The notes beneath the pieces were generated by a model. That model had not been told where the DNA came from. It made no database searches and worked only from the letters and a program-made list of their open reading frames with translations. Position numbers and translations under genes: made by a program. From a virus: a stretch of 49,349 nt of DNA. Location of the stretch: positions 1 through 49,349 of the IMG/VR virus record IMGVR_UViG_3300036857_000177; one strand, 5' to 3'. Of this stretch, positions 3,693-42,134 are shown piece by piece. Within the stretch, counting starts at the first letter, position 1; every line of letters starts with the position of its first letter.

Positions 3693-4715
3693 TTACGCGA
3701 AGTGGGCGATGCCGGAACCGTGATCCGCGTTCGAACGAATCAGCGGAACGAGGATGTTGAACGCCTTGAACTCGACCTGCATCCCACCGTGAGAATCCCA
3801 CTGGATGGTCTGGGTCGACTCGCCTTCGATCATCTCGACGACGTCCTTCGTCGGCTGGAACATGATGACTTCACCCGAGGCGAGCTTGTCGACCGTCGCG
3901 ATACGGCTGATCTCCTCGATGTCATCAATGCGCTCACGAATGGTCTTGTCATAGCCGTCCTTGTAGTCCTCGGACAGCTTCAGGGACGCCGCAGTTCCGC
4001 CGATGTAGATCCAGTAGGGACCGTTGAATCCGTCGGCCTGAAGAGCCTTGATGCCGCTGAACACGTCGGCAATGACCTGAGGCCCTGTCTTCGCTGTCTG
4101 TGCCCAGTTGCCACCGGCACCGAACGCGACGACGTTTCGATCGGGATGGGTGCGGAACCCGTAAATGTTGAGACCTCCGAAAGCCTTGCCGCCATTGAAC
4201 AGCATGTCTTCGGACTTCTCACCGACCTTCCGGCCTGCCACACGGATGTAGGTCGTATCCATGGGTTCCGATCCCGTCCGCGAAGCCAGCAGCGCTCGCA
4301 GGTTGAGATAGAAATCCTTGTGGGTAATCGGCAGGGGCAAGCCAGCCGATTCGTACTCGATCCGATCGTTCTCCGAACGGTTGATGCCGTCCATCGAAAC
4401 GATCGCATCGTCCATGTCGCCGACCTTGTCGTACTGGAGAACGGTCTTTGCGAGACCGTTGGGAATGGTTTTGCTGAGGCCAGCGACGAGAAGATCCGCG
4501 ACGGCACGGAGACGTTCCTTGGCTCCCTCGACGATCTCGGTGTCGAACACCTTCCACTCCTCATTGCGGAGGAGCTCGTTCGTCCTCAGAGCCGCCGGTG
4601 AAAGAGGCTCGCCCTTCTGCATGGCGCGAACGAACTGATCGCACGCCCACCTGCCAGCCCCTCGCATGAAGCTACGGCCTGTGTCGAGCCGTGCTCCAGA
4701 ATTTTCTACTCCCAT
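3693..4715 (-). CDS. major capsid protein, encapsulin-like family
   Basis: 340 residues. The sequence matches the HK97-fold capsid family related to encapsulins: SMDGINRSENDRIEYES, the E-loop region LPLPITHKDFYLNL, the run FGGLNIYGFRTHPDRN, GPYWIYIGG, and the ending RSNADHGSGIAHFA. It forms the icosahedral shell. There is no long N-terminal delta domain, which fits a separate scaffold. The decoration and protease/scaffold genes lie directly upstream in the same operon. Confidence 0.85.
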   Translation of the reverse strand: MGVENSGARLDTGRSFMRGAGRWACDQFVRAMQKGEPLSPAALRTNELLRNEEWKVFDTEIVEGAKERLRAVADLLVAGLSKTIPNGLAKTVLQYDKVGDMDDAIVSMDGINRSENDRIEYESAGLPLPITHKDFYLNLRALLASRTGSEPMDTTYIRVAGRKVGEKSEDMLFNGGKAFGGLNIYGFRTHPDRNVVAFGAGGNWAQTAKTGPQVIADVFSGIKALQADGFNGPYWIYIGGTAASLKLSEDYKDGYDKTIRERIDDIEEISRIATVDKLASGEVIMFQPTKDVVEMIEGESTQTIQWDSHGGMQVEFKAFNILVPLIRSNADHGSGIAHFA

Positions 4716-8430: not shown

Positions 8431-9069
8431 TCACACCTTTTTCCGGCAGACAATGTGCGATTCTCCGCCGTGAAATGGATATTTTTTCGCGAAAATTACG
8501 TTGAAATCAAAGGATTCCCACGTTTTTGCCCAGTCAGAAACTGGCCATTTGTTGAGATGTGCTGGCTCATTGTCTCCAACCATGTCTGGAGTCACGTGGG
8601 CCGAATATCCACCGGGCTTCAGAACTCGAGAAATCTCCTGAATTCCCCGATCAACATCACCCAAATGCTCCATCACGTGCCGAGAACAGATCAAATCGAA
8701 GCTCTCGTCCGGAAAGAAGTACATGTCCTCGACGTAACCTTCGTAGATGAGCTTCCCATCGGCCTGAGCCTTCGTCACCAAGGGCTCGTAGAGATCGATG
8801 CCGACGATTGGATCTCCATGAGGTGTCCAGTCAGCCAGAATATTCCACTGACCTCCCGAGGCACTGCCAAGCTCCAAGATTCTCTTCCGGTTCCGAGGGA
8901 CATGAAAAAGTAGGGCTCGATAGGACTGTTCATCCACCGTAGCGATGACGTTCTGAAGACCGTCCTTGAGTCTTTGGTTGTGAAGCTCCGTCATCCTACG
9001 ATGATGATCGTAGTTTAACTCCTTCACTCGGTGCAAAGATGTCGTCAATGCGTTCTCCGTCTGCCCCAA
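8431..9069 (-). CDS. class I SAM-dependent methyltransferase
   Basis: 212 residues. Motif I is ELGSASGGQ (66-74), the acidic ribose-binding residue is D92 in VGIDLYEP, and HVMEHLGDVDRGI followed by RVLKPGG is the type-11 methyltransferase signature. The substrate is not evident; there is no DNA-methylase NPPY/DPPY motif. The start lies 25 bases inside the end of the large terminase gene, so the two are translationally linked, and the stop abuts the portal gene. A methyltransferase between terminase and portal is uncommon and suggests a virion protein or small-molecule target. Confidence 0.8.
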   Translation of the reverse strand: MGQTENALTTSLHRVKELNYDHHRRMTELHNQRLKDGLQNVIATVDEQSYRALLFHVPRNRKRILELGSASGGQWNILADWTPHGDPIVGIDLYEPLVTKAQADGKLIYEGYVEDMYFFPDESFDLICSRHVMEHLGDVDRGIQEISRVLKPGGYSAHVTPDMVGDNEPAHLNKWPVSDWAKTWESFDFNVIFAKKYPFHGGESHIVCRKKV

Positions 9070-10562
9070 GTGGCTCGACGCACGACCGGACGCGGCGGAG
9101 CCATGGCCAGCATAATCGATTCGGCACGATTCGGTGACGGAACATTTCGCTTCTGAGCTTCGATCTTTGTCTCGATCTGGATTTTACCGTTCGAATTCCG
9201 CTTGTATCGAACAGAAATCAACTCAGAAGCCAAATCTTCATCGTCAGCGTCTATATCGATTGTTCCTGCCTCAAAAAGATCTCGGAGATGCCACCAAAGT
9301 TCTGCGCGTCGGTTCACGAATCGCTTCTCGTCGTCCGGCTTTTCTCCTACGTTAATTCCCTCGACAGGTCGATTGAGCTCTGAGAGTCTATCGAACACTC
9401 CCTTACCGATGCCGACAAGATCGACCTTTGCTAGTGTTGCACTGGTCTCGTCTAGTGCATTGACGACTTTTCCAGTGGTAGCCATTGTATCTGGATTTCG
9501 GTCCTGCCATCGGACTCGCACCACGTTACCTCGACGATGTGCTCCGCACGAAGCATCTCCACCTCCTCCCACGTCAATACCGAGCTCGTTTTCTGATCCG
9601 GGAAGGAGTGTTCGCTCTTGAGCAGCACGGACCCATTGGAAAGGTATAAGGCCATCTTCCTCTGCTTGAATCGGAAACTCGCCCAGAACTTTACTCTGCC
9701 AAAAAGCTCCTGTCTGATGAATGTCCACGCCCGGCGGAGGGACCACCCGAACTCCCTCATCTGCGTCGGATGGATTTCCATCCTTGTCCACCCAGGTCCA
9801 GTTTCGTGCCCACTTACGTCGCTTTTCTTCAACGTATAAGCGGCCAATGAGCCTCTCCCTTAAATCCTGAGGAATATCTTCCCCAGTGAAATTCGGCGTA
9901 TCGAAGGCCCCAATCTTAATCACGTGCCATCCCGACCCAGGCTTACAAATCTCGCAGAATTCAGTGGTCGGGTCATCCGGGTTTCCGAAGGCCAACCCCC
10001 TCGAGTAGTCGTTAGCAATCAGCGAGTCCGCCGCTTCCCACAAGTTAAGAGGCATCCCACATGCCTCATCGAAGATGTAGAGCACCCGCTTCTCATGGAT
10101 GCCCTGAAAAGCGGCGGAGTCATAGTCACTTGGCTTTCTTCCGATTGCTACCTGCTCCTCTTTTCCCGGATTTCCGTTCTTTCCGGGCATCCGAATGATC
10201 CACTCGGTTTGATTGACCCTTCCTGCTAGATTTCCCTTCGTGTGTGCCCTTCCGATTTCCCGCCATAGAATTGTCCTCACCTGCGGCCCAGTGGGCGCAG
10301 ACGTTACGACGAAACTCTCTCCTGCTGGATGTATGTCGATCCACCAAGCGACAATTCGTCCCGAGATGAAGCTCTTACCGATTTCATGGCAGCTCTGCAC
10401 CGCCACTTTTCGGTACTTCCGAACAGCCTCGAGGATCTTCTTTTGTCCGGACCACAGGGTGTCTCCAAGTTTCTGCTCACACCACGCAGCCGGATCTTTT
10501 ATGTAAATGCGTCGAGCAATTTCCTGCTCGAGCCGTTCGAGTTCAGATCTTGTCTCGAGCAT
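9045..10562 (-). CDS. terL: terminase large subunit
   Basis: 505 residues. ATPase domain: Walker A-like SCHEIGKS (57-64), Walker B VLYIFDEA with D165-E166, coupling motif AFGNP (191-195). RNase H-like nuclease: first acidic residue D330 in ELGIDVGGGGD, a second at D381 in KVDLVGIGKGVFDRL, and a C-terminal SPNRAESIMLA where many homologues have SPDRAD. It cuts concatemers and pumps DNA into the prohead. It starts one base after the stop of the small membrane protein gene. Confidence 0.9.
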   Translation of the reverse strand: MLETRSELERLEQEIARRIYIKDPAAWCEQKLGDTLWSGQKKILEAVRKYRKVAVQSCHEIGKSFISGRIVAWWIDIHPAGESFVVTSAPTGPQVRTILWREIGRAHTKGNLAGRVNQTEWIIRMPGKNGNPGKEEQVAIGRKPSDYDSAAFQGIHEKRVLYIFDEACGMPLNLWEAADSLIANDYSRGLAFGNPDDPTTEFCEICKPGSGWHVIKIGAFDTPNFTGEDIPQDLRERLIGRLYVEEKRRKWARNWTWVDKDGNPSDADEGVRVVPPPGVDIHQTGAFWQSKVLGEFPIQAEEDGLIPFQWVRAAQERTLLPGSENELGIDVGGGGDASCGAHRRGNVVRVRWQDRNPDTMATTGKVVNALDETSATLAKVDLVGIGKGVFDRLSELNRPVEGINVGEKPDDEKRFVNRRAELWWHLRDLFEAGTIDIDADDEDLASELISVRYKRNSNGKIQIETKIEAQKRNVPSPNRAESIMLAMAPPRPVVRRATWGRRRTH

Positions 10563-10776: not shown

Positions 10777-11358
10777 TCAGTGGACCGACTTGTCTGTGGA
10801 TTTGACTACTTCAGCATCGATGACTTGACTCCCGTCGCCAATGAGTCCCTGTTTCATCAGCGCCCTCGTGAGGAGCCGATGCCGTTCGAGCAGATCCTGA
10901 TCCGTCAGCTTGGAGTAATCCTCCTCCGGTTTCTCTACCTCCAGAGTTGCCTTCGGACCGTATCCGCTCCGATCCAAGATAGCGACTGCTGCTCTGACTG
11001 CCGTCGGCAAGTCATTACTCGCCATCGCCCTTCTTAGCGTCGCAAAGGCCGGTTCCACCAAGCAGAGTAGCCGCATCTTCGCGGCCTGCCTCATGGCGTG
11101 CGTAGTGCCTCCGTGCTCCTCACACACCGAGGACCCAGGCGGAGCCATTCGTAGGCAGACGTCACCTGTAAGCGGGTCTCCTAGACACTGCTTGGGTTCG
11201 TATTTTCTAGCGTATGCTCGTCTACGCCGGAGTTCCAGGTTCTTCTCGGCCTCGATTCGGGCCAAGTGATCCAGCTGCTTCTGCTGGAGATCCTCCAGGC
11301 GTTTGTCGACGCGCGATTCGCTCATCGAGTAGGATTTGGGCTTTTCACCGAGGGACAT
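10777..11358 (-). CDS. terminase small subunit-like protein
   Basis: 193 residues from ATG 11358. Order: charged coiled coil (KRLEDLQQKQLDHLARIEAE), a metal-binding-like cluster (CLGDPLTGDVC, then SSVCEEHGG), and a helical region (TAVRAAVAILDRSGYGPKA) as in many phage small terminases. It would bind packaging DNA and regulate the large subunit. A TTG at 11403 in the same frame overlaps the -35 box of the promoter, so it cannot be the start. The predicted leader is only about 10 bases; ATG 11325 is an alternative. It is the first gene of the late operon. Confidence 0.6.
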   Translation of the reverse strand: MSLGEKPKSYSMSESRVDKRLEDLQQKQLDHLARIEAEKNLELRRRRAYARKYEPKQCLGDPLTGDVCLRMAPPGSSVCEEHGGTTHAMRQAAKMRLLCLVEPAFATLRRAMASNDLPTAVRAAVAILDRSGYGPKATLEVEKPEEDYSKLTDQDLLERHRLLTRALMKQGLIGDGSQVIDAEVVKSTDKSVH

Positions 11359-11374
11359 ATATGACTCAAGCTCG

Positions 11375-11403
11375 AGGATAACACACCTGCTTATGGAATG
11401 CAA
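11375..11403 (-). promoter_or_regulatory. late operon promoter (minus strand)
   Basis: Read on the minus strand: GCGTTTTTCCC then TTGCAT (11403-11398), 17 bases, TATCCT (11380-11375). The T-rich run plus CCCTTGC matches the plus-strand promoters at 30282 and 48093. It reads towards the small terminase and so the structural cassette. Confidence 0.65.
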
Positions 11404-11574
11404 GGGAAAAACGCTCAGGTTGCAGGGGATGGGCTTCGAGTTACTGGGCGCGGAGTTGTTAACTTGTTATCTGAGTCACGGGAGAAATGGTGAGAGGAGT
11501 TGTTTAGTTGTTAACTCTGAGAGAGATGAATCGCGCGTATAGGGGCACCACCTCCGGCCAGGTTCTAGGCTCGC

Positions 11575-11630
11575 TTACAAAACTGCAATCCGTTGCAAGC
11601 CTCATGCCGATTACGAGACTGTAATCCAGA
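11575..11630. repeat. TTACA / TGCAAG-type repeat element
   Basis: Contains TTACAAAACTGCAATCCG, TGCAAGCCTCATGCC (11594-11608) and an inverted ATTAC-GTAAT pair. These are degenerate versions of the TTACA and TGCAAGAGCCGTGCC elements found 1.7 kb away at 13247-13619. The stretch 11404-11574 holds no recognisable gene. Confidence 0.5.
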
Positions 11631-11660
11631 GCCGAGCCACGCGACGTGTAAATCTTACAC

Positions 11661-11898
11661 AATAGATCTAGTATCACCGAGCATCACGCATACTAGATAT
11701 AGTGCTACTACCGATAGTGTCGCCCCGAGCCAGTGAACTAGATCTAGTGCCACTCCCCCTAGTGCCATGCACTCACCCTCATACAAGATATAGTACACTA
11801 GATATAGTGTCACGCCACCATGCCATACTAGATCTAGTTCACTCGCTACACACCACTACATATACACTCACCCCCACTACCCACCCACTACATCTAGT
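11661..11898. repeat. cluster of 12-bp palindromes ACTAGAT(A/C)TAGT
   Basis: Near-perfect copies at 11661-11672, 11692-11703, 11737-11748, 11783-11794, 11797-11808, 11827-11838 and 11887-11898, plus half sites such as CCTAGTGCC near 11759. Several are followed by G-C/T. Spacing is irregular at about 14-50 bases. A dyad-symmetric 12-mer in many copies between divergent operons fits operators for a dimeric regulator or origin-binding sites. No gene is seen here. Confidence 0.75.
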
Positions 11899-12001
11899 GG
11901 TGGGTGGGGAGGCAGGCCTCCGCCTCACTGCCCTACTTACGGTTATGTAACCCCTAACTGTTGTAGACAAAGGACTTACGGGCACGCATCCGCGTGCCGC
12001 T

Positions 12002-12124
12002 AACCCCATTGCCTACAACACTTAGCCACCCCAGCTTGTAAAGTGTTGCAAACATTGGTAGTTACAGCCCCCATCGACCAGGGGGTGTATGCCCGCGAAC
12101 CCCATTGTTTACAAGCACTTAGCC
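12002..12124. repeat. two direct repeats of about 27 bp
   Basis: AACCCCATTG then CTACAACACTTAGCC at 12002-12027, and AACCCCATTG then TTACAAGCACTTAGCC at 12098-12124, 96 bases apart and just upstream of the promoter at 12130. A related fragment (TGTAACCCCTAACTG) lies near 11945. Iteron or regulator sites are possible. Confidence 0.55.
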
Positions 12125-12129
12125 CCCAG

Positions 12130-12157
12130 TTGCGTGCTTTTTATAGCGTGCTATGAT
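12130..12157 (+). promoter_or_regulatory. promoter of first plus-strand paralogue gene
   Basis: TTGCGT (12130-12135), 16 bases, TATGAT (12152-12157). It gives a leader of about 80 bases before GTG 12243. The -10 box covers the ATG at 12153, which is therefore not a start. Confidence 0.6.
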
Positions 12158-12242
12158 GTCTTTGTTGGTGCGGCGGGCGGGACGGGGCGACGCGGTTCTC
12201 GCGGCAGGCCGGTTCAGTCGGCACCAAATCGAGGTGAGTGAA

Positions 12243-12584
12243 GTGCAGAAGACCTTCTCGTATGTCGGCGTCAAGTCGGGCTACCTGGCGTTCCAGGTGG
12301 CGGGCCTCCGCGGGACCGTCTACGTCCCCAAGGGGTTCTTCGCGGCAAACTCGGTGCCGTCGACGTTCGTCGTCGACGCGCCGTTCGCGGAGCCCGCGCC
12401 CACGCCCGCCAGCGTGAGCGCGCTCCAGGCGGAGATCGAGGCCCTCAAGGCCCAGCTCGCCGCCTCGGCCGTCCCGGCCACCACGGAGGCGACCCCGGAG
12501 CCGGTCGTCCCGGAGCAGCCCGCTCCGGCGGCGGAGGAGCCGGTCGCCGAGCCGGTCGCCGAGCCCAAGCGCAAGCGCGCCTAG
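12243..12584 (+). CDS. KSGY/RGTVYVPKGFF family small protein, copy A
   Basis: 113 residues from GTG 12243, with GAGGTGA a few bases upstream. The core, about residues 6-50, is YVGVKSGYLAF ... LRGTVYVPKGFFAANSVPS ... FAEP, clearly paralogous to the genes at 15322, 23247 and 26251. A short heptad-like helix (SALQAEIEALKAQLAAS) and an Ala/Pro/Glu-rich tail ending KRKRA follow. I do not recognise the family. Its own promoter and a following hairpin suggest a separately and strongly expressed product. GC content is much higher than in neighbouring regions. Confidence 0.75.
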   Translation: MQKTFSYVGVKSGYLAFQVAGLRGTVYVPKGFFAANSVPSTFVVDAPFAEPAPTPASVSALQAEIEALKAQLAASAVPATTEATPEPVVPEQPAPAAEEPVAEPVAEPKRKRA

Positions 12585-13154: not shown

Positions 13155-13685
13155 CTAGTCCCAGTAAAGACCCCCCAAATTCTCGTTCCTTCTCGGGCTC
13201 CGCAGAGGCCTTCTCGGGCATTCTCACACGAACCAGTTAGCGCGACTTACAATTTTGTTCGCGGGATTACAGTTCCGTTCTCCCCTGCAAGAGCCGTGCC
13301 TTACAGATCTGTTTGAGCGATTACATTTTGCGTCCGTGGACTTTTCCGGCGTCCGATTACAGTTCTGTTCGCCGATGCAAGAGCCGTGCCGACAATTCCC
13401 GGCATCCGCCTTGCATTGAGTGTATCAAAATCGCACATGGGCCTAAAACGCGCAAAGCTCCGCTCTGCGGGACTTTCGCCCATGCCCATCTAGTCCCAGT
13501 AAAGACCCCCTGCCGGATCGTCCCGGAGAACGGATCCTAGCGCGTTTTCGGGCCTACTCACGGCCAGGCCGTTAGCCCCTACGAGTTACGATTCAGTAAG
13601 CGAATGCAAGCACCGTGCCGATGATGCCCCTAGAGGCCGCTGTGAGCGGGGCAAAACGCCCCACGGACCCCCAGTAAAGGCCCCC
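13155..13685. repeat. degenerate long tandem repeats in the control region
   Basis: The marker CCCAGTAAAGACCCCC occurs at about 13160-13175, 13495-13510 and, with one change, 13670-13685. Between the markers lie TTACA-nn-TCTGTTCG elements (13247, 13267, 13301, 13321, 13357), TGCAAGAGCCGTGCC at 13286-13300 and 13376-13390 (degenerate TGCAAGCACCGTGCC at 13605-13619), and GTTTTCGGGCC-n-CTCACG at about 13543 and 13719. So a unit of roughly 175-335 bp is repeated with drift. No coding frame runs through it. A replication origin, partition or packaging site, or regulator array are candidates. Confidence 0.65.
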
Positions 13686-15061: not shown

Positions 15062-15321
15062 TTACTCTGAGAAGGTCAAGAAAAAGTACCAGTGAGATGT
15101 TATGGCGGTTACAACTCCGATCGACGGACTTGGCTGTAACCGGCACGCGTCTTGCAAGTCGCAGTCGTGTATTGAATCTATGCAAATCGGTGAAAAACCT
15201 GATAATTCTCGTCGATGTTGAGGGCACCGGCACATATGCAGCGGCGTCGCGCCTAGAAGCTTCGACTCTCATTGAAGCTTCTCGGGGCAATATCGCCCAT
15301 CCGTGTCAAAGGACAAACATC

Positions 15322-15690
15322 GTGAGCACAAACAACTCGTCGTCGAACGTCGTCGTCAACACCGTCAACAACACCGTCAACCAGGAGCAGATCGTGGAAA
15401 ACACCAACAAGACCATCACCCTCACCTACGTCGGCGTCAAGAGCGGCTACCTCGCCTTCACGACTCCCGACCTCCGCGGCACCGTCTACGTCCCGAAGGG
15501 CTTTTTCGCGGCTAACGCCGTCCCCTCGTCCTTCTCCGTGACGTCGTCGTTCGCGGCGCCAAAGCTCGCGGCCCCCAAGGTCGCCGAGCTTCAGGCCGAG
15601 GTCGACGCGCTGAAGGCCAAGCTCGCCGCGCTCAAGTCGGCCGAGCAGCCCGCGGCCAGCGAGCAGGCGCCGGTCGAGAAGACCGCCTAG
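15322..15690 (+). CDS. KSGY/RGTVYVPKGFF family small protein, copy B
   Basis: 122 residues from GTG 15322, with AAAGGA about 8 bases upstream. An Asn/Val-rich lead (residues 2-32) precedes the core YVGVKSGYLAFTTPDLRG, TVYVPKGFFAANAVPS and FAAPK, nearly identical to copy A. A heptad helix (AELQAEVDALKAKLAALKSA) and a polar tail follow. The longer upstream frame is poor in coding signal and lacks a ribosome site, so the GTG is preferred. Family unknown. Confidence 0.75.
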   Translation: MSTNNSSSNVVVNTVNNTVNQEQIVENTNKTITLTYVGVKSGYLAFTTPDLRGTVYVPKGFFAANAVPSSFSVTSSFAAPKLAAPKVAELQAEVDALKAKLAALKSAEQPAASEQAPVEKTA

Positions 15691-23161: not shown

Positions 23162-23246
23162 GTAGTCGTTGGGTCGGGGTTACGCGGAGGCCGCTTCCGC
23201 CGGGAGCGGCACTCGGGCAATCCAGCCCACAAGGAGAGTAGTTAGT

Positions 23247-23702
23247 ATGAAGAGCATCGTGATCAAGTCGCAGGGAATCAAGTCGGGTTACCAGGCCTTC
23301 GGTTCGGCCGATTACCGGGGAACGATCTACATCCCCAAGGGTTTCTTCAGCGAGGTGCCCGCGGAGATGACGCTCGAGGGCGACTTCGCGGACCCGAAGC
23401 CGGAAGCGGTTCGTGGCCCGAAGGATCCCGCAAAGGCTCAGGCAGCGGCGGCCAAGGCCCAGGAGACGGCGAGCAAGGCGCAGGCTCGCGCCGACAAGCT
23501 CAAGGAGCAGGTCGAGCGCATCAAGGCCAAGATGGCGGCGGCAGGTCAGGGCGAGGTAGTTCCGGTCACGCCGACGGAGCAGCAGACGATGGCGGCCACG
23601 GAGTCGGCGACTCCGGCAGGCGAGCCGGTCGTCCCGGCGACGCCGACCACGACGGCCGAGGCCAAGGCCAAGGGCGGACGTCGTCAGCCGACCGCGGTCT
23701 AG
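23247..23702 (+). CDS. KSGY/RGTVYVPKGFF family small protein, copy C
   Basis: 151 residues, AAGGAGAG site. The family core begins at once: MKSIVIKSQGIKSGYQAF, YRGTIYIPKGFFSEVPAE, GDFADPK. A long Ala/Lys/Glu coiled coil follows (about residues 60-105), then a Pro/Thr/Ala-rich tail ending GGRRQPTAV. It is a complete unit with its own promoter and terminator, which suggests high expression and independent control. Confidence 0.75.
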   Translation: MKSIVIKSQGIKSGYQAFGSADYRGTIYIPKGFFSEVPAEMTLEGDFADPKPEAVRGPKDPAKAQAAAAKAQETASKAQARADKLKEQVERIKAKMAAAGQGEVVPVTPTEQQTMAATESATPAGEPVVPATPTTTAEAKAKGGRRQPTAV

Positions 23703-26176: not shown

Positions 26177-26205
26177 TTGCGTTCGACAGGGTGGAGCGTT
26201 ATCAT
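26177..26205 (+). promoter_or_regulatory. promoter of copy D
   Basis: GCGTTTTTCAC then TTGCGT (26177-26182), 17 bases, TATCAT (26200-26205). Same extended -35 context as 38374 and the late promoter. Confidence 0.7.
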
Positions 26206-26250
26206 TGTATTCGTTACGTGGCAAGCACGTCAGTTAAAGGAGAGAATGAA

Positions 26251-26607
26251 ATGGAGCTCAATCTTCGGAAGGTCGACAAGAACGGACTGGCAATCTACGA
26301 AATCCCGAATCTTCGTGGCAGCGTCTACATCACGAAGTCGATGTTGAAGGGCGAACCACCGGCAAAGCTCACGGTCGAGGGCGTCGAGTTCGCGGAGCCG
26401 GGGCTGAATGGATCGCGGGTCTCGATCGACCCCGAGAAGGTCCGCAAGGCCGAGGAAGCGGCAACGAAGGCTCAGGAGCGCGCGACGAAGGCCAAGGAGA
26501 AGGCCGAGGCGCTCGCGAAGCGGGCGTCGGAGATCGTCGGCGGTCAGACCCAGGGCACGGTTCCGGAGTCGGTCGGCGAGGTCAAGGAAGTTCACGCCAC
26601 CGCGTGA
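26251..26607 (+). CDS. KSGY/RGTVYVPKGFF family small protein, copy D
   Basis: 118 residues, AAAGGAGAG site. The most divergent copy: MELNLRKVDKNGLAIYEIPN, LRGSVYITKSMLKGEPP, VEFAEPG, then a coiled coil with repeated K-AEEAATKAQERATKAKEKA pattern (about 68-100) and a Val/Glu tail. It retains the LRGSVYI strand and P-A-LTVEG ... FAEP spacing. Own promoter and terminator. Confidence 0.7.
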   Translation: MELNLRKVDKNGLAIYEIPNLRGSVYITKSMLKGEPPAKLTVEGVEFAEPGLNGSRVSIDPEKVRKAEEAATKAQERATKAKEKAEALAKRASEIVGGQTQGTVPESVGEVKEVHATA

Positions 26608-34025: not shown

Positions 34026-34248
34026 AAACGAATACCTACCGTCTCATGTCACACAGCGAGTAAAACGCGCTGTACGACTGGAAGCTGCCAACCGAAGTAT
34101 GTCGGCATCGGCACTCGTGTTTGAAATTCTCCAAGAACGGATGCGAGAGCTTGGCTACGAGGTGGATGCAAATGAATTCATGGATTCATCAGATTCACGA
34201 GACCACGCCGGTGCAGATGAAAGGCCAAACCTGGTTCAAAAGGGATGA
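34006..34248 (+). CDS. ribbon-helix-helix protein, 80 residues
   Basis: ATG 34006. YLPSHVTQRVKRAVRLEAAN then RSMSASALVFEILQERMREL: Arc/CopG-type RHH with a polar tail. Likely a transcription regulator. The last 77 bases overlap the PLP enzyme gene. Confidence 0.6.
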   Translation: MAITTDRNEYLPSHVTQRVKRAVRLEAANRSMSASALVFEILQERMRELGYEVDANEFMDSSDSRDHAGADERPNLVQKG

Positions 34249-35143
34249 CCTCTTTGCTCCACTAGGCGCGGGCGGGATCAATGGCGCGAAGCTTCGTCAG
34301 TGCATCTGGCTCGTGCATCGGGCTTATGAAGCGAATATCCCCGGCTTGGTTTCAGGAGCTAGCGTCAAGAGTCCACAGTTGATGATGACGAGTGCCGTCG
34401 CGCATCACTTCGGCATGAAGAGTCATCATGTGATCGGTGCTACCAAAGAAAGCACGATGCGGAATCACGTGTCGGTCGACATCGCCGCGGAATACGGAGC
34501 GACCTTTACAATCCTGAATATTGGGTTCAATCCCAATCTTCAGCGAGAAGTCACACGTCTCGTTAACTCAGACATCTCAGCCTATCAAGGCTGGCTCCAT
34601 CTGGAATACGGAATCTCGCTTAACCATCTGTTTCATCCACCTGAAGACATTGAGAAGTTTCATTGGATCGGTGGACAACAAGCTCGCAACATCCCAGAAG
34701 AAGTGGAGACTCTCATTGTTCCTGCTGGCTCATGCAATTCTGCTACTTCTGTTCTTTATGGGATTGCGATGTATCCACCGCCCAATCTCAAAAAAGTGAT
34801 TCTTATCGGCATCGGTCCATCTAAGCTCCAATGGATGGAACGACGTCTTGATATTATCAGAGACATCTCTGGTGAAGATGTTGAGCATCCTGCATCCAAA
34901 GTTCGCAAGTGGAACTGGATGTATTGTGATCTCCACGGCGCCGGGATCTACTCATACCAAGACGAAGCTGAATACTTTCTGGAAGACATCACGTTCCATC
35001 CGACCTACGAGGGGAAATGTATGAACTACCTCATGGCTCGGATGCCGGAAGTCTTCAACCCCACGACTTGCTTCTGGATCATCGGCGGTCCTGTGGACAG
35101 GAACTACATGAAGGATCTCGCAACCCGTTCAGTGAGGGGATAA
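34172..35143 (+). CDS. PLP-dependent enzyme, Trp synthase beta superfamily
   Basis: 323 residues from ATG 34172 (GAGG 9 bases upstream; ATG 34166 is possible). WFKRDDLFAPLGAGGINGAK followed by LRQ gives the PLP lysine K40, as in ACC deaminase/D-cysteine desulfhydrase relatives. Then SGASVKSPQL, HHVIGATK, AAEYGATF and C-terminal VPAGSCNSATSVLYG (the glycine/serine phosphate cup). A small amino acid or an amino-acid adduct on DNA is the expected substrate. In hypermodifying phages such enzymes trim the amino acid attached to thymine. It heads the block of modification-type genes. Confidence 0.75.
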   Translation: MNSWIHQIHETTPVQMKGQTWFKRDDLFAPLGAGGINGAKLRQCIWLVHRAYEANIPGLVSGASVKSPQLMMTSAVAHHFGMKSHHVIGATKESTMRNHVSVDIAAEYGATFTILNIGFNPNLQREVTRLVNSDISAYQGWLHLEYGISLNHLFHPPEDIEKFHWIGGQQARNIPEEVETLIVPAGSCNSATSVLYGIAMYPPPNLKKVILIGIGPSKLQWMERRLDIIRDISGEDVEHPASKVRKWNWMYCDLHGAGIYSYQDEAEYFLEDITFHPTYEGKCMNYLMARMPEVFNPTTCFWIIGGPVDRNYMKDLATRSVRG

Positions 35144-35385
35144 TGATTGAAATTAGAATTAGTAAACGGATTTGGGGAGATAGTCCTGAATCTTTAGCTA
35201 GTATCCGTAATCACATTTTGAGCGGAAAACCATTTCTAGCTAAATGCCCAAATTGTGAAGAGGGACCAGTGCTAGGTCGTTGTACCTCAAGAGACGGCAC
35301 TGAAGGACTATACTGTGTCGGTTGTGGAAAAGTTCATCCTCTTCCTGGAGATGAAATTCATCTTTTCAATGTTTTCTTTGACTAA
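35143..35385 (+). CDS. zinc-ribbon protein, 80 residues
   Basis: GAGGGG site, ATG overlapping the previous stop. FLAKCPNCEEGPVLGRCTS and GLYCVGCGKVHPLPG: two C-x2-C knuckles. The stop is one base from the tRNA. Function unknown. Confidence 0.6.
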   Translation: MIEIRISKRIWGDSPESLASIRNHILSGKPFLAKCPNCEEGPVLGRCTSRDGTEGLYCVGCGKVHPLPGDEIHLFNVFFD

Positions 35386-35386
35386 A

Positions 35387-35462
35387 GTCCTTTTCGTCTA
35401 GAGGCCTAGGATATCGCCCTTTCACGGCGAAGACACGGGTTCGAATCCCGTAGAGGACACCA
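35387..35462 (+). tRNA. tRNA-Glu (UUC), CCA encoded
   Basis: Acceptor GTCCTTT pairs with AGAGGAC; D arm TCTAGAGGCCTAGGA; anticodon stem CGCC/GGCG with loop CTTTCAC giving anticodon UUC; T arm ACGGG-TTCGAAT-CCCGT. Discriminator A59 is followed by CCA (35460-35462). Closely resembles E. coli tRNA-Glu. It lies inside an operon, one base after a stop codon. Its last A is the first base of the next gene's AAGGAGG. Confidence 0.95.
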
Positions 35463-35472
35463 AGGAGGAAAA

Positions 35473-36213
35473 ATGAAAATCGCACTTGTCTGCGAGAAGT
35501 GGCGACTTCCTGTTATGCCGGGGAAAGCGGCGATTGTTCCAGGCGAAGACAAGCGAGTGCTTGGATACTACGAGTATATCAATGCGAAGTCGCACGAAGT
35601 GGGTCGAAATGCCTTCTGCATTGAGTTTCTACTTAATCGACTCCCGAAGGGACTCGCTGTGGTTGAGGCCTTCGGTGGCGTCGGCGTCTTCGCGACCATT
35701 GTGCAGAATGTCATCAAACCCTCTTTTCATCTGATCATGGACCTCGATGACGACTGCTATCACCAACTTCAGAATGCTTTTAATCCAGATGAAGTTAACA
35801 ACATCTTAGTCGAGCAAGCGGATGCTCGGCTAGTGATGACACAGGTCGCTGCGGACCTTTATCTGCTGGACTTTCCGTTTTTCACGATGGTTCAGTATTC
35901 CAAGTGGAAGGATGAATGGGACGCGATCGTCGCACATCAACCGAAGGCCATCGTCTGGATGGACGGTGCTTCCAAGTATCTCCATCTGCATACAGAACTC
36001 TATTCAAAGGTTTCAGAATTCCCCATTTCCGACCACACCACGTATATTCAAGGAGTGCGTAAGTTCATCCTTGAACGTCACAACTATACCGTGACCGCGT
36101 GCGCGTTCTCCACTGGGTGTTACTACTTCCTCGCTGAGCCTGGCTGGCATCAAGAACCTCCGGTAATCGTTCAAGAAAAGAGACAGGGAGGTCTGAAATG
36201 GATAGCTCAGTAG
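35473..36213 (+). CDS. SAM methyltransferase-like protein, 246 residues
   Basis: AAGGAGG overlaps the tRNA end. Rossmann motif I VVEAFGGVGVFATI (64-71 core), acidic motif MDLDDDC (89-95), VEQADARLVM, and motif IV-like LLDFPFFT (133-138), resembling the DPPF type but with DFP. The end is YFLAEPGWHQEPP. The substrate could be a base or an adduct on DNA. Overlaps the amino-acid:DNA transferase gene by 16 bases, suggesting shared pathway. No target-recognition domain is apparent. Confidence 0.6.
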   Translation: MKIALVCEKWRLPVMPGKAAIVPGEDKRVLGYYEYINAKSHEVGRNAFCIEFLLNRLPKGLAVVEAFGGVGVFATIVQNVIKPSFHLIMDLDDDCYHQLQNAFNPDEVNNILVEQADARLVMTQVAADLYLLDFPFFTMVQYSKWKDEWDAIVAHQPKAIVWMDGASKYLHLHTELYSKVSEFPISDHTTYIQGVRKFILERHNYTVTACAFSTGCYYFLAEPGWHQEPPVIVQEKRQGGLKWIAQ

Positions 36214-37325
36214 GCCGTTGGTCCGACATCAATGAAGTAGATGAAATTTCCGATCTGGAAACGGGCATGGACTTTCGAAAGCCCGAATACCGTCGGGAAG
36301 TGTTTCTGCGCTTCTATCAGTTCCACACGAAATACAAGGCTCATCCGGGTGGCGTGTATTATCTCATCCCAGCACTATCCGAGGTCTTTGAGTGGGACAT
36401 AGAAGAACAATTATGGTGGGCGTTCTTGAATGGCAATACTCAGAACCCGATCATATCCACGATCATCATGCAGAGCTTTCCGTATCTCGCGGAAACCGAT
36501 CCAGTGGAGCTCCAAAACTATTTGGATACCAACTGGCATCGTCTTCATTTTGATACGGACCGGCGCTACTGGAAGAAGGAGCTCGCAAACTGTGTCGCGA
36601 ACTATCAGCGTCAGCTGAATGGTGAGACACAGCGGAGTTTCTTTGAGAAGTATTGTCAGGCTCAAAGTAAAGCCTCAAACTTCATGATGATGTGGGACAA
36701 GGTGCGAAATGACTTCTATGGTTTTGGTCGCTTATCCACATGGTCCTACTTGGAATATCTATTTATTCTTGGATTGCCGATCGATCCAGGAACTCTGTTC
36801 CTCGAGGACCGGGACGGTTCAAAATCACTTCGAAATGGTCTCTGTAAAGTACTCGGCAGGGACGATTTGGATTGGCACGATTCTAACCCGACCTTTAACG
36901 GAAAATACGCTCCTGAGCTTATTCACTGGCTAGATGGTGAAGCCAATCTACTTCTGTGGGAAGCTAAGGAGCGGATGCCCAACGAACCGTCCATCAGCCA
37001 CTTTACCCTCGAAAGCACGTTCTGCTCTTACAAGAGTTGGTTTCGTCCAAATCGTCGTTATCCTAACGTCTATAACGACATGATGAACGAACGCATCAAG
37101 AAAGCTGAAGCTGACTGGAAAGATGACGCGGGTTTAGATCTCGATCTCTTCTGGCAACTCCGGAAGGCTTTCTTGCCGAAAAACCTGCGGCTGGAAGACA
37201 ATCCCAATGATCTCGGCATTCACCCCACCAAGCAGAATCACTTCCGTCTGACTGGCCAGGTGATCATGATGGAACGTGATTGGAGTTGTTTCGCTAACGA
37301 TTACTCAAAGAGGTTAGTGGAATGA
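36198..37325 (+). CDS. amino-acid:DNA transferase-like (aGPT-Pplase) protein 1
   Basis: 375 residues, all-helical. DFRKPEYRREVFLRFYQFHT opens the domain; FGRLSTWSYLEYLFILG (176-192) and DGSKSLRNGLCKVLGRDD (206-223) match my recollection of the alpha-glutamyl/putrescinyl thymine pyrophosphorylase family, which displaces pyrophosphate from 5-pyrophosphoryloxymethyl-uracil in DNA with an amino acid or amine. Starts inside the methyltransferase gene and ends in an ATGA overlap with the HD gene. Assignment is from sequence pattern plus the kinase and thymidylate synthase homologues nearby. Confidence 0.65.
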   Translation: MDSSVGRWSDINEVDEISDLETGMDFRKPEYRREVFLRFYQFHTKYKAHPGGVYYLIPALSEVFEWDIEEQLWWAFLNGNTQNPIISTIIMQSFPYLAETDPVELQNYLDTNWHRLHFDTDRRYWKKELANCVANYQRQLNGETQRSFFEKYCQAQSKASNFMMMWDKVRNDFYGFGRLSTWSYLEYLFILGLPIDPGTLFLEDRDGSKSLRNGLCKVLGRDDLDWHDSNPTFNGKYAPELIHWLDGEANLLLWEAKERMPNEPSISHFTLESTFCSYKSWFRPNRRYPNVYNDMMNERIKKAEADWKDDAGLDLDLFWQLRKAFLPKNLRLEDNPNDLGIHPTKQNHFRLTGQVIMMERDWSCFANDYSKRLVE

Positions 37326-37909
37326 TCACGACGTTCACATTGAAAAGAGTCGATCCATTGAATGTGCGGGTTGAAGACATCGATATTGAAGACATTGCAC
37401 ATTCACTGTCTCTAATCAATCGATTCGCGGGACACTCGTCGATTCCTATTTCCGTTGCCCAGCACTCGTGCTACGTGGCGTGGCTCTGCGAAGGACAAGA
37501 GCCTTACATTCAGCTACAGGCACTTCTGCACGATGCCGCGGAAGCCTATCTCGGGGACGTCACCAAATGGCTGAAACACTCGCCAGAATTCGATAACTTC
37601 CGTCTCCTCGAGGATGACGTCCAGCGCGTCATCTTCACATGGGCTGGCTGTCCTCTAGAGTTGCATCCGTCGGTCGAAACAGCCGACAAGCTGATGGTCA
37701 AGTTTGAGGCTAAGAAAGCCTATGGTCCGAACTATATCATCGATCGTCCTGGCTACGGAGAAATTTCTGATGAAGAATACCACTGGATTCAGTCTCAGAC
37801 TCTGTGGCCGTGGACCGTGTGGAACTGGAGAAGGACAGAAGAGCGATTTCTAAACCTCCACAAAGCTCTGCTAGGTCGCTGCGCGGCGCAAGGGTCGGGC
37901 ATTGCGTAA
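37322..37909 (+). CDS. HD-domain hydrolase (YfbR-like 5-prime nucleotidase)
   Basis: 195 residues. INRFAGHSSIPISVAQHS (H48), LLHDAAEAYLGDV with H70-D71, and ETADKLMVKFE carry the metal-binding HD pattern. YfbR-type enzymes remove phosphate from dNMPs. In a phage that replaces thymine, this could drain the normal nucleotide pool. Overlaps the transferase gene by 4 bases. Confidence 0.75.
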   Translation: MITTFTLKRVDPLNVRVEDIDIEDIAHSLSLINRFAGHSSIPISVAQHSCYVAWLCEGQEPYIQLQALLHDAAEAYLGDVTKWLKHSPEFDNFRLLEDDVQRVIFTWAGCPLELHPSVETADKLMVKFEAKKAYGPNYIIDRPGYGEISDEEYHWIQSQTLWPWTVWNWRRTEERFLNLHKALLGRCAAQGSGIA

Positions 37910-37924
37910 AAGGCAATCCTAGGC

Positions 37925-38015
37925 CCCTCACAGCCCCGTGAGCACGCTTTGGGGCTGCCGCCAAAGGCAATGCAAGGGGCGGTTTGCGCGGCGTTCTCAC
38001 GGCCTGTGAGCGGTT
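37925..38015. repeat. CCTCACAGCCCCGTGAGC repeat and relative
   Basis: The 18-mer at 37926-37943 is exact to 47935-47952; a degenerate form (TCTCACGGCCTGTGAGCG) follows at about 37995. CTCAC and GTGAG arms can pair. The intergenic region also repeats GGCAAT-type words. It separates the HD gene from two small AT-rich genes. Confidence 0.55.
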
Positions 38016-38035
38016 TCACAAACAGGAGAATACGC

Positions 38036-38221
38036 ATGAGATCTGATAAATTACTAAGAAATCTTCCAGATAAAAAAGTCTTAATAGATTGTCTCTACGC
38101 AAGATGCGACTGCACACAGCATTCTGCTTATGGTAGAATTTGTGAAGAGGTATATCTACATATGGTTGATTGGTGTACTCCTTGTTTGATGAAAGCTGCA
38201 ATAGATCTTTTAAGACAGTGA
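38036..38221 (+). CDS. unknown Cys-containing protein, 61 residues
   Basis: CAGGAGA site. MRSDKLLRNLPDKKVLIDCL, ARCDCTQHSAYGRICEEVYL, WCTPCLMKAAIDLLRQ: CxC, C and C-x2-C suggest zinc. AT-rich compared with neighbours. Confidence 0.55.
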   Translation: MRSDKLLRNLPDKKVLIDCLYARCDCTQHSAYGRICEEVYLHMVDWCTPCLMKAAIDLLRQ

Positions 38222-38233
38222 AAGAGGCTGGTT

Positions 38234-38356
38234 ATGATGATATGGCTTTTCTGCTGTAATCTATGGAATTTATGTCATGAGTTCCTGCGACGTGAACGAT
38301 TTGACGTGACGCGATACATGTCTCGCGAGTGGATTGCGGAGCAGAAGAAAAAGTAA
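38234..38356 (+). CDS. 40-residue basic protein
   Basis: AAAGAGG site. MMIWLFCCNLWNLCHEFLRR then TRYMSREWIAEQKKK. Short hydrophobic N-terminus, basic rest; possibly membrane-associated. No family. Confidence 0.45.
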   Translation: MMIWLFCCNLWNLCHEFLRRERFDVTRYMSREWIAEQKKK

Positions 38357-38373
38357 ACCTCAGCGTTTTTCAC

Positions 38374-38402
38374 TTGCCTTTTGTTAACTCATAGTATAGT
38401 GT
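38374..38402 (+). promoter_or_regulatory. promoter of the kinase-transferase-TS operon
   Basis: GCGTTTTTCAC then TTGCCT (38374-38379), 17 bases, TAGTGT (38397-38402); TATAGT at 38395 with 15-base spacing is an alternative -10. It lies 18-25 bases before the first kinase ATG. Confidence 0.6.
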
Positions 38403-38419
38403 ATAGGTGACTGCCGCCT

Positions 38420-38980
38420 ATGATTATCAACGTTCGAGGGACGTCAGGGTCCGGCAAGAGCTTCTTGGTTCGACGTATTATGGACCAATATGAGGCCATT
38501 GTCCCTTACTTCACAGATGGCCGAAGGAAGCCTCTCTACTACGTTTGCTCCACAAATCTCAAAAAGCCGGTAATTTCAATTGGGCATTATGAGACACCCT
38601 GTGGAGGTTGCGACACCCTCAAGACAGTCGATCAAGTATATGACATCGTTCGTGAATCAGCTCGGTCAGGTTTTCATGTCATATACGAAGGCATCATGGT
38701 CAGCGGCGAGTCTCGTCGCTGCATTCAGCTTCACAAAGACAGTCTTCCGATTCATGTGATAGCACTCGATGTGCCGCTTGAGCAGTGTCTGGAATCAGTC
38801 AGATCCCGACGCGAAGCTCGTGGTGCTAAGAGTGAATTCAATCCTGAACGTACTCAGCGTCGTGCTCGTGAAGTTCGTAGCATGATGGAACACCTCAAAA
38901 TTGCTGGGGTTAAAACCGAGTGGCTTCCACGAGATGAAGCTCTGGTCCGTTGCATTGAACTTTTTAACGAGGCGATATGA
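38420..38980 (+). CDS. P-loop kinase, 5-hmdU DNA kinase-like, copy 1
   Basis: 186 residues. Walker A GTSGSGKS (7-14) after MIINVR, signature GHYETPCGGCDT (55-66), VIYEGIMVSGESRR (second acidic strand), DVPLEQCLESVRSRREARG lid, and a C-terminal PRDEAL element. Such kinases sit beside aGPT-Pplase genes in hypermodifying phages and are proposed to phosphorylate 5-hydroxymethyl-uracil in DNA. First gene of an operon of ATGA-linked genes. Confidence 0.7.
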   Translation: MIINVRGTSGSGKSFLVRRIMDQYEAIVPYFTDGRRKPLYYVCSTNLKKPVISIGHYETPCGGCDTLKTVDQVYDIVRESARSGFHVIYEGIMVSGESRRCIQLHKDSLPIHVIALDVPLEQCLESVRSRREARGAKSEFNPERTQRRAREVRSMMEHLKIAGVKTEWLPRDEALVRCIELFNEAI

Positions 38981-39531
38981 TCGTAAACATTCGAGGCACA
39001 CATGGTTCAGGAAAAAGTACACTTGTCAGGAAAATTCTTGATAGTTCATCTGAGTGGGATCGAGTTTATGTTTTCGACCGGAAACGCCCCTTTGGATATC
39101 TTCATAACGAAGGTAAACTTTGGGTCCTCGGACATTACGAACTCGAGGGCGGTTGTGGAGGATGCGATACGATTCCCATCGTCGACGACATGTTCGATTC
39201 TATCAAAGCTCAGTCAGCCGTCGGTCTAAACGTGCTCTACGAGGGCATTCTCGCACAGCACGGCGTTCCTCGAGTGATTGAGCTTCACAAGCTCTATCCA
39301 ACCACCGTTATCATTCTCACCACACCTGAGCAAGAGTGCATCGATGCGGTTAATGCTCGTCGTGCTCAGAAAGGCAAAGGTCCTCTCGACCCACCGGATA
39401 GCATCACGGGAGAATTTCGATCGGTGCTTTCTGCTGGCAAGAAACTGCTCGCAGCAGGTGTCGATGTTCGCTACCATTCTCGAGAAGAAGCCCTCCGAGT
39501 AACTAAGGAGCTTCTGAAGTGGAACTATTAG
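38977..39531 (+). CDS. P-loop kinase, 5-hmdU DNA kinase-like, copy 2
   Basis: 184 residues, clear paralogue of the previous gene: Walker A GTHGSGKS (7-14), GHYELEGGCGGCDT (52-65), VLYEGILAQHGVPRVIELHK, PEQECIDAVNARRAQKG, SREEAL. The GG inserted before CGGCDT and a shorter middle distinguish it. Overlaps copy 1 by 4 bases and the transferase by 13. The pair may add successive phosphates or act on different bases. Confidence 0.7.
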   Translation: MIVNIRGTHGSGKSTLVRKILDSSSEWDRVYVFDRKRPFGYLHNEGKLWVLGHYELEGGCGGCDTIPIVDDMFDSIKAQSAVGLNVLYEGILAQHGVPRVIELHKLYPTTVIILTTPEQECIDAVNARRAQKGKGPLDPPDSITGEFRSVLSAGKKLLAAGVDVRYHSREEALRVTKELLKWNY

Positions 39532-40400
39532 AGCAGTATTTCCGCACTGCGCGCGAGCGCGAGCGCATCCGCATACATCGGTCTCAAGGACTCGAACCGA
39601 AAGACTGGACTGTAGATCCTGTCTTTCAGTTTTGGCGCTTCTGTAACGTGCGACGAGAAGATGACAAGACTACGGTATGGTTCCGTGAAAATGTTCGAAA
39701 TGCACTTCTCTCGCCATATCGAGTTACTGCGGCCACCGTCATCTTCCGCTGGTTCAACAGAATTGAAACTGGTGAGCTAATCAAAGATCTGCTTCTCGAG
39801 GAGTGGAACACGGAAGAGGCTCGGCGACGTCTCAAGGATGTAACTCCTGTTGTCACCGGAGCCTACATCATCAAAGGCCCTGACTACATGACGAAGCTGG
39901 ACGGCGTACTCTATTGCGTAGATCGAGCACTTCCTCAGTTGAAAGTCATGGTTGAGAACTGGGGACCGTCACTTCAGTCCGCGTGGGAAGATCTTTGCAC
40001 GATTTACTATCTCGGCAAGTTCATGTCGTATGAGGTCGTGAGCGATCTCCGCTGGACGCCGGTGCTGAATCAAGCCAAAGACATCTGCACGTGGGCCAAC
40101 GCTGGACCCGGCTGTGCTCGTGGCCTCGGTTGGGTGCTGCGGAACAATTCTAGCACTTTCAATTCTGAGTCCAAAGTGGATCAGAAGATCATGTTGGAGT
40201 TGATGGAAGCCCTGCTCTACGCCTCGAGAGAAGACAAATACTGGCCTGTCGAATTTCCTCGGTGGGAAATGCGGGAAGTGGAGCATTGGGCTTGTGAGTT
40301 CGACAAATACAAACGAGGTGAGAGCGGCAACAAGCTCAAAAGGAGGTTCAATGGACCCTCTGCGTCAAAAGCTGATCAACGAACGATACAAGGAGTTTAG
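39519..40400 (+). CDS. amino-acid:DNA transferase-like / hmdU kinase helical partner
   Basis: 293 residues from GTG 39519, AAGGAG upstream. RERERIRIHRSQGLEPKDWT with VDP, then FCNVRREDDKTT (41-52), matches the helical family that includes aGPT-Pplase clade 2 proteins and the helical domain of 5-hmdU DNA kinases. The central LGKFMSYEVVSDLRWTP and GPGCARGLGWVLRNN are typical. It directly follows the second kinase with overlap, so it could be either a transferase or a kinase-associated domain on its own chain. Distinct in sequence from 36198. Confidence 0.65.
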   Translation: MELLEQYFRTARERERIRIHRSQGLEPKDWTVDPVFQFWRFCNVRREDDKTTVWFRENVRNALLSPYRVTAATVIFRWFNRIETGELIKDLLLEEWNTEEARRRLKDVTPVVTGAYIIKGPDYMTKLDGVLYCVDRALPQLKVMVENWGPSLQSAWEDLCTIYYLGKFMSYEVVSDLRWTPVLNQAKDICTWANAGPGCARGLGWVLRNNSSTFNSESKVDQKIMLELMEALLYASREDKYWPVEFPRWEMREVEHWACEFDKYKRGESGNKLKRRFNGPSASKADQRTIQGV

Positions 40401-40548
40401 AAACGCCGGGGATGACCCGATGAACGCGGCTCTGAGACTCGACGATATTGGATCGACCGTGGATGAGACGCGAGCGGCCATGGTAGAATATGGTGATAGC
40501 TCCGAAACGATGACAGATAACTTTGACGAATTTTGCGATGAGGACTAG
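40351..40548 (+). CDS. unknown acidic 65-residue protein
   Basis: AAGGAGG site; overlaps the previous gene by 50 bases. MDPLRQKLINERYKEFRNAG then DPMNAALRLDDIGSTVDETR and an acidic end (FDEFCDED). Stop adjoins the next ATG. Confidence 0.6.
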   Translation: MDPLRQKLINERYKEFRNAGDDPMNAALRLDDIGSTVDETRAAMVEYGDSSETMTDNFDEFCDED

Positions 40549-41565: not shown

Positions 41566-42134
41566 CTCACGTGATGCTCGACCTGGAAACCATGAGTACT
41601 CGGTACAATGCGGCGGTGGCTTCGATCGGTGCGTGCATTTTTGAGCCTGCTGCTTTGGAGAGCTATACCGATTTTACTCCGGATCGTCTCTTTTATGTGA
41701 AGCTCGATCTCTCCAAGCAGAGAGGTCGAGACTTTGACGGAGACACGATCTACTGGTGGATGGCTCAGGAGCAGGAAGCTCGCGACACACTCCGGATGCA
41801 CATCGTTCATCCTCACGAGGCCTTACGGCAGTTTGCTGAATGGTATCGGACGAAAGAGGGTGGCGTAACGTGGAGCTTGGGCGCTAACTTCGACCACGTT
41901 ATCCTTCAGGATCTTTACAACTGGATTGGGATGAAGAATCCCATAAATTATCGTGATCAGCTTTGCATGAGGACGGTGGTGAAAATGACCGCCGAACAGC
42001 CTCCGGCAATCCCCGAGATCGTAGGACATCGAGCAATCGACGACGCCATTCTCCAGGCCATTTGGCTTCAGCGCGCACTCGCAGCGACCAAAGGAATGTG
42101 GAATGTTTATCAGAAGCAAGGCACGGTTCTTTGA
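41562..42134 (+). CDS. DEDDh 3-prime to 5-prime exonuclease
   Basis: 190 residues. Exo I VMLDLETMST (D7, E9), Exo II ANFDHVIL (D111), Exo III GHRAIDDAILQA (H156, D161): a complete DEDDh set like the phage RNase T/ExoVIII-type family. It could provide proofreading in trans for the polymerase that lacks its Exo I aspartate. Confidence 0.75.
   Translation: MTHVMLDLETMSTRYNAAVASIGACIFEPAALESYTDFTPDRLFYVKLDLSKQRGRDFDGDTIYWWMAQEQEARDTLRMHIVHPHEALRQFAEWYRTKEGGVTWSLGANFDHVILQDLYNWIGMKNPINYRDQLCMRTVVKMTAEQPPAIPEIVGHRAIDDAILQAIWLQRALAATKGMWNVYQKQGTVL

Follow-up and report, generated by a model that had tools for sequence, protein, structure and literature searches.

A palindrome array in a divergent intergenic region

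The viral record IMGVR_UViG_3300036857_000177 (IMG/VR) is 49,349 bases long, and this whole stretch of DNA is referred to below as the window. Between its leftward genes (11403 and below) and its rightward genes (12153 and above) lies a divergent intergenic region (11404..12152) that carries an array of seven 12-mer palindromes resembling ACTAGATNTAGT at 11661-11898. Judged by their sequence, these palindromes are almost certainly boxes for NrdR, a repressor of ribonucleotide reductase (RNR) genes in bacteria, and binding of NrdR to them is predicted. The record gives no completeness, and the window is probably a partial genome because few tail genes were recognized.

The genes on either side of the array belong to different functional blocks. 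Nearest on the left is a putative small terminase gene, terS (10777..11403, minus strand), which was assigned by its position upstream of terL and has a weak match to a family of unknown function. It is followed by terL itself, encoding the terminase large subunit TerL (9045..10562, minus strand; phrog_2, E 2e-22), and the leftward block also holds a capsid-like gene (3693-4715). The rightward block opens with a gene of unknown function (12153..12584, plus strand; one of four paralogs) and runs through further genes of unknown function to a helicase, a DNA polymerase, and a thymidine-hypermodification cluster. The array is therefore located in the divergent region that separates the packaging and structural block from the early block. 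An 82-amino-acid open reading frame (ORF) drawn over it (11702-11950) is probably spurious.

When both strands are considered, five of the seven palindromes fit ACTAGATNTAGT exactly (11692, 11737, 11797, 11827, and, on the minus strand, 11887), and those at 11661 and 11783 have one mismatch each. From left to right they are box 1 (11661..11672, AATAGATCTAGT), box 2 (11692..11703, ACTAGATATAGT), box 3 (11737..11748, ACTAGATCTAGT), box 4 (11783..11794, ACAAGATATAGT), box 5 (11797..11808, ACTAGATATAGT inside the full 16-mer ACACTAGATATAGTGT), box 6 (11827..11838, ACTAGATCTAGT), and box 7 (11887..11898, ACTACATCTAGT). Start-to-start distances from box 1 to box 7 are 31, 45, 46, 14, 30, and 60 bp. 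Two neighboring pairs, boxes 1-2 at 31 bp and boxes 5-6 at 30 bp, have the spacing of canonical pairs, which is 30-33 or 40-43 bp between centers, or roughly three or four turns of the helix.

The initial annotation had described a seven-copy array of dyad-symmetric 12-mers at 11661..11898, and the array is indeed present there. That the motif might be equally common elsewhere in the genome proved not to be so. For the symmetric form ACTANATNTAGT, all five exact sites in the window and all seven sites with at most one mismatch fall inside the array, whereas 60 dinucleotide-preserving shuffles, at the same tolerance of one mismatch, averaged 0.40 sites per window and had at most one in any 240 bp. 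With up to two mismatches to ACTAGATNTAGT there are 20 matches in the window, compared with a mean of 5.63 and a maximum of 16 in 100 shuffles. A second IMG/VR contig carries the same array, and because it is 100% identical over 5807 bp it provides no independent conservation.

Identity of the palindromes

A scoring matrix was built from 48 bacterial boxes, none of which came from the window. This bacterial matrix ranks the seven array boxes first to seventh in the window (25.1-16.5 bits; boxes 1 through 7 score 17.5, 22.6, 20.5, 16.5, 25.1, 20.7, and 23.7 bits), and the next site reaches 9.6 bits. A matrix made from six E. coli boxes alone places all seven in the top ten, intermixed with three other sites. 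The 12-mer of box 7 is identical to one E. coli nrdH box, and the regions upstream of nrdA, nrdH, and nrdD in E. coli K-12 contain matching sites 31 bp apart.

Published work, cited here and below from excerpts of each paper, describes NrdR boxes as paired 16-bp palindromes, mostly with spacers of 15-16 bp and with a second affinity optimum at 24-27 bp (PMC12051234). Their consensus is given as acaCwAtATaTwGtg (PMC4009431). When dATP and ATP are bound, the NrdR tetramer is suited to a pair of boxes roughly three helical turns from each other, and it kinks the DNA (PMC9110341). Compared with the excerpted data of PMC12051234, the spacings of boxes 1-2 and 5-6 are inside the range that NrdR binds well. 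It had been suggested initially that the palindromes serve cooperative binding by an unnamed repressor, and this idea is borne out to the extent that the motif, together with pair spacings of 30-31 bp, fits a NrdR tetramer occupying two boxes. Searches of the window found neither a NrdR Zn-ribbon nor an ATP-cone, so the repressor is most likely the NrdR of the host.

The same motif marks RNR control in cellular genomes. A scan for the exact pair at 31-33 bp in one genome for each of 84,980 bacterial and archaeal species returned 27 loci, 21 of which have the pair next to an RNR or nrdR gene. The other six comprise two loci of one species on the integrase side (L107 and L108), one inside a long repeat ORF (L121), and L114, L125, and L127. 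The two integrase-side loci are in Longispora albida, where NrdR box pairs stand beside integrase genes at two places; one of these (L108) is the same element as a viral locus (L085), judging from the matching gene layout, which points to use of the site in integrated elements.

Box pairs in other viral genomes

A strict scan for two ACTAGATNTAGT sites 22-52 bp apart, run on 2.9 million viral contigs, found 92 loci; two control palindromes matched for composition gave 12 and 0. Thirty-seven of the 92 lie inside long ORFs and were treated as a coding artefact because 39 of 40 spacings there are multiples of three; they were dropped before TerL neighbors were counted. The remaining 55 non-coding loci form 25 groups by flank similarity and include the window's own phage (L079). 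Of the 58 spacings at these 55 loci, which the scan left free, 38 fall at 30-33 bp, as do 19 of 26 when each flank group contributes one member. This preference is NrdR's own spacing.

Among 113 flanking proteins that were scanned, families of the terminase large subunit match most often, and no RNR is among the 25 best families listed. A TerL gene lies within 2.5 kb at 35 of the 55 non-coding loci, and 11 of the 25 flank groups have such a member; for the control palindrome the figure is 0 of 12 loci, nine of which are in ORFs. Where a terL gene is held by the locus, the boxes are usually upstream: they lie no more than 1.2 kb upstream of the terL start in 30 of 37 such loci, with 5.4 expected for random positions and 13.3 for random positions outside ORFs. 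Counted per TerL lineage (ten lineages at 40% identity, one being the window's own phage), the value is 6.9 of 10, against expectations of 1.3 and 3.1, respectively.

Several lineages place the pair close to a gene start. In L012, L046, L048, L071, L191, L235, and L245, which form one lineage, the portal gene follows the pair at a distance of about 30 bp, and each of the seven loci has a TTGAC motif between its boxes. The pair directly precedes terS in L009 and L089, and in L093 it precedes a small gene upstream of terS-terL. Pontimonas phage phiPsal1, which has a named host, carries a degenerate pair with 32-bp spacing immediately ahead of terS; this pair was missed by the three-mismatch filter but scores 19.1 bits with the matrix, compared with a maximum of 9.6 in 20 shuffles. 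These pairs resemble repression sites. As a separate observation, L012, L046, and their relatives have a tRNA/tmRNA-like 3' end (GGTTCGATTCC...) between terL and the box pair; ARAGORN reported no gene in any of the four loci submitted to it, and a tRNA or tmRNA gene at this position was rejected.

More elaborate arrangements also recur. Boxes 4, 5, and 6 of the window form a triple of the type box, 14/15 bp, box, 30/32 bp, box, and the same triple is present in L022/L096, L070 (a record shared with L156), L083, and L161; L008 and L094 were also listed for it but are coding loci. In the group of L007, pairs are again separated by 44-46 bp, and arrays of four to seven boxes are present in a marine phage group. 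The triple-box and 44-46 bp patterns may reflect a higher-order NrdR complex.

NrdR boxes and RNR genes

Because no RNR or nrdR gene was found in the window, the array was not classed as a NrdR-controlled RNR promoter. The window gave no match to the ATP-cone, the RNR barrel domain, the RNR small chain, or the NrdR Zn-ribbon, in searches that did not include the class III NrdD family, and an RNR could lie on a stretch of the genome that the record lacks. Likewise, a local search for RNR and NrdR genes found none at 93 viral loci, and no NrdR Zn-ribbon scored above the family cut-off in 37 viral records, the window included. Many viral contigs are short fragments, so the absence of an RNR from a contig does not mean its absence from the virus. 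Excerpts of PMC8790148 and PMC5894146 list a NrdR encoded by a virus, and PMC8790148 has NrdR-annotated genes in some phages.

The simple idea that phage NrdR boxes serve a phage RNR was considered and set aside. A search with PF02867 in 49 viral records gave five matches, four strong and one weak. The four phage records with strong matches (G041, G011, G035, and G045) each carry two or three NrdR box pairs at 31-32 bp, and no pair was found at the RNR gene in any of the four. That these pairs lie away from the RNR gene argues against phage boxes serving phage RNR.

A proposed role in the timing of late genes

On balance, we lean toward the view that the phage recruits host NrdR through the array as a repressor of its late-gene region that responds to deoxynucleoside triphosphates (dNTPs). 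Host NrdR carrying dATP and ATP would bind boxes 1-2 and 5-6, and perhaps the others, and kink the DNA. While dNTPs are plentiful, bound NrdR would silence the divergent intergenic region, its target most likely being the leftward operon of terS-terL and structural genes. Phage replication would then lower dATP, NrdR would release, and the leftward late operon would be freed, so that the dNTP gauge of the host would act for the phage as a timer coupled to replication. Binding by host NrdR at this site, the leftward operon as target, and the direction of control are steps that we infer.

Two published systems bear on this proposal. During infection of pneumococcus by phage SpSL1, excerpted data report that at 50 and 90 min no host genes are induced more strongly than the NrdR-controlled operons, with the phage late operon then high (PMC6755750). 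SpSL1 lacks a box pair of its own, yet the NrdR regulon is induced, and infection alone can therefore free NrdR promoters. In addition, part of PMC4840434 lists an interaction between a phage Cp-1 protein and a NrdR-family regulator.

A number of observations weigh against the proposal. Canonical spacing occurs in just two of the six neighboring intervals of the array, and the intervals of 44-46 bp and of 60 bp do not fall within the optimum that has been tested. No sigma-70-like promoter lies on the boxes above chance: the sole match in the region, GTGACA-17-TATCTT on the minus strand (11785..11813), covers boxes 4 and 5 and compares with a shuffle mean of 0.8. The promoter geometry that other lineages show at portal and terS genes is not visible in the window itself. 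The phage may also carry hypermodified thymidine, which may affect the binding of NrdR to the boxes. Furthermore, boxes are missing from most of the named phages that are related by TerL. Among the named phages examined, no pair was found in HTVC027P (terL region searched), HTVC023P (first 50 kb), Kaijohn, Pam1, SpSL1, or Cp-1, and none around terL, the sole region examined, in DSL-LC04 and CRP-901; in 023Pt_psg01 a single box lies 249 bp upstream of terL.

The breadth of the targets must be weighed as well. A looser scan with a relaxed motif at a fixed distance of 31-33 bp gave at least 93 further viral loci, none of them inside an ORF of 150 amino acids or more. Among the matches listed (at least 93), 16 are near TerL, two are at class III RNR fragments, and 75 are near neither; with so few near TerL, late genes would not be the sole targets. 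The nearest downstream genes among these matches include portal, endolysin, HNH, and NrdD (two members) genes, and many have no listed family. Given these mixed loci and the pairs of the RNR-encoding phages, NrdR boxes seem to serve phages at promoters of several types, with the terL position the main one just for the strict motif. A still wider proposal is offered tentatively, as we think it less probable than its opposite: many unrelated phages would use the NrdR operator as a dNTP gauge for late genes, and multi-box arrays would in addition titrate NrdR and keep host RNR feeding replication.

Alternative explanations

The main rival holds that the array is a DNA decoy. Replicating along with the phage, seven boxes would draw host NrdR away from the host nrd promoters, host RNR would be derepressed, and dNTPs would flow to the phage with no need for control of any phage promoter. 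The presence of seven boxes, mostly near consensus, is what such a decoy would look like, as are the four- to seven-box arrays of the marine phages, and the lack of a recognized class I/II RNR or NrdR in the window and of RNR or nrdR genes near any of the 93 viral loci in the local search is consistent with it. A decoy could sit anywhere, yet the strict-motif sites cluster upstream of terL; most other phages have a single pair, and several pairs stand directly at gene starts. A decoy is also unnecessary for derepression, since SpSL1 induces the NrdR regulon without a box pair, according to the excerpts of PMC6755750. We consider this explanation unlikely overall, and it is for the seven-box array above all that it is strongest.

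Less probable again is a packaging-site element, in which boxes in a cos or pac region beside terS would be contacted by terminase or by an architectural protein of the host. In the latter role, NrdR would act in the manner of IHF at lambda cosB. The boxes are near terS and terL, and contigs L009, L025, L049, and L089 end close to them, but contig ends may also be products of assembly. In one terL lineage (L010, L025, L082, and L095) the pair is set among ACTAAC-type repeats beside a G-rich stretch resembling GACCGGGGGAGGGGG, and these surroundings are perhaps a packaging site. As a general account, packaging would require that terminases of at least nine or ten lineages share the motif and spacing of NrdR, and some pairs are found elsewhere, either between terL and portal or at a distance from terL.

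We give slightly less weight to the possibility that a regulator encoded by the phage, instead of host NrdR, uses the same palindrome. Most genes of the window have no assigned function, and some phages have NrdR-annotated genes, as noted for PMC8790148 in the excerpts considered. On the other hand, the Zn-ribbon count among the 37 viral records is zero, and the boxes agree exactly with bacterial ones across several phage lineages.

A replication origin, with the palindromes as iterons for an initiator protein, is very improbable: the sites are repeated and intergenic and the cumulative GC skew has its minimum about 1-2.5 kb to the right of the array (turning near 13-14 kb), but gene orientation switches at the same place, so that skew cannot separate origin from transcription, the motif is that of NrdR, and no initiator was recognized among the genes tested. 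The initial suggestion of an origin-binding protein thus found no support.

Other features of the window

The thymidine-hypermodification cluster (34121-42134, plus strand) encodes ADDT (amino acid:DNA transferase) and 5-hydroxymethyldeoxyuridine (5-hmdU) DNA kinase domains together with thymidylate-synthase-like and deoxynucleoside monophosphate (dNMP) phosphatase-like proteins. Because these genes are present, the thymines of the phage may be modified. Four paralogous small proteins are spread through the rightward block on the plus strand (12153-12584, 15097-15690, 23169-23702, and 26191-26607). They share the core ...GVKSGYLAF...LRGTVYVPKGFF... and have tails rich in Ala and Pro, and their family matches are weak or lacking.

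A second short motif, RAACTGTAATCC, has five matches with at most one mismatch in the window (0.31 expected by chance), including two just left of the array (11580-11627) and two near 13.3 kb (13264-13365). An inverted repeat, GATTAC-N6-GTAATC, adjoins this motif, whose sites are possibly promoters or another operator. The stretch between the array and the first rightward gene holds an imperfect inverted repeat with 34-nt arms and two direct repeats of the CCGCTAACCCCATTGCCTACAA type (11954-12025 / 11997-12127). A search of 11300-12300 against Rfam gave no family above threshold; two sub-threshold animal microRNA models were taken as chance. No near relative of window positions 1-25000 was found among 50,697 phage records, and the best TerL relative is 42.5% identical.

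Comparison with known systems

Literature searches on NrdR and phages, which covered the beginnings of abstracts, gave no account of NrdR boxes in phage genomes. None is described in the passages considered from PMC12051234, PMC12176259, PMC9110341, PMC4409342, PMC4009431, and PMC4840434, or in those from PMC6755750, PMC4989314, PMC8790148, PMC5894146, and PMC10294663. NrdR boxes themselves are already known; the new element would be the redeployment of a host metabolite-sensor operator in phage genomes, away from RNR genes. If the proposed role is true, a phage operator that answers to a host dATP sensor would couple late expression directly to replication, and NrdR control would extend beyond bacterial RNR and topA genes. 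These findings bear on how environmental phages in which no late activator is recognized set the timing of packaging and structural genes and draw on host dNTPs, and the box pair is a DNA signature by which phage regulation can be searched for in metagenomes.

The closest likeness is to the nrdAB, nrdHIEF, and nrdDG promoters of E. coli, which have the same palindrome and whose pair spacing is shared by boxes 1-2 and 5-6. The phage array differs from them in having seven boxes rather than two, in its place beside terS-terL, and in that no RNR gene was found downstream. In excerpts of PMC12051234, the nrdAB promoter of Listeria monocytogenes has four NrdR boxes and thus likewise more than one pair per regulatory region, but it serves bacterial RNR control and all of its pairs are canonical, in contrast to two of six neighboring spacings in the phage array. 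The topA gene of Pseudomonas aeruginosa likewise has a NrdR box at a gene other than RNR, although the excerpted report concerns a single box, activation, and a bacterial gene (PMC4409342).

In pneumococcus, infection by SpSL1 likewise frees NrdR-controlled promoters in step with late genes (PMC6755750, in part). That system differs in that the phage has no box pair of its own and the effect is on host genes. Host LexA serves some phages as a repressor for genes of their own, and in this way a host sensor-repressor times phage genes. Compared with these phages, the signal for the array described here would be depletion of dNTPs rather than DNA damage, and the array suggests that a bacterial sensor is used to time, or to feed, the multiplication of a phage.
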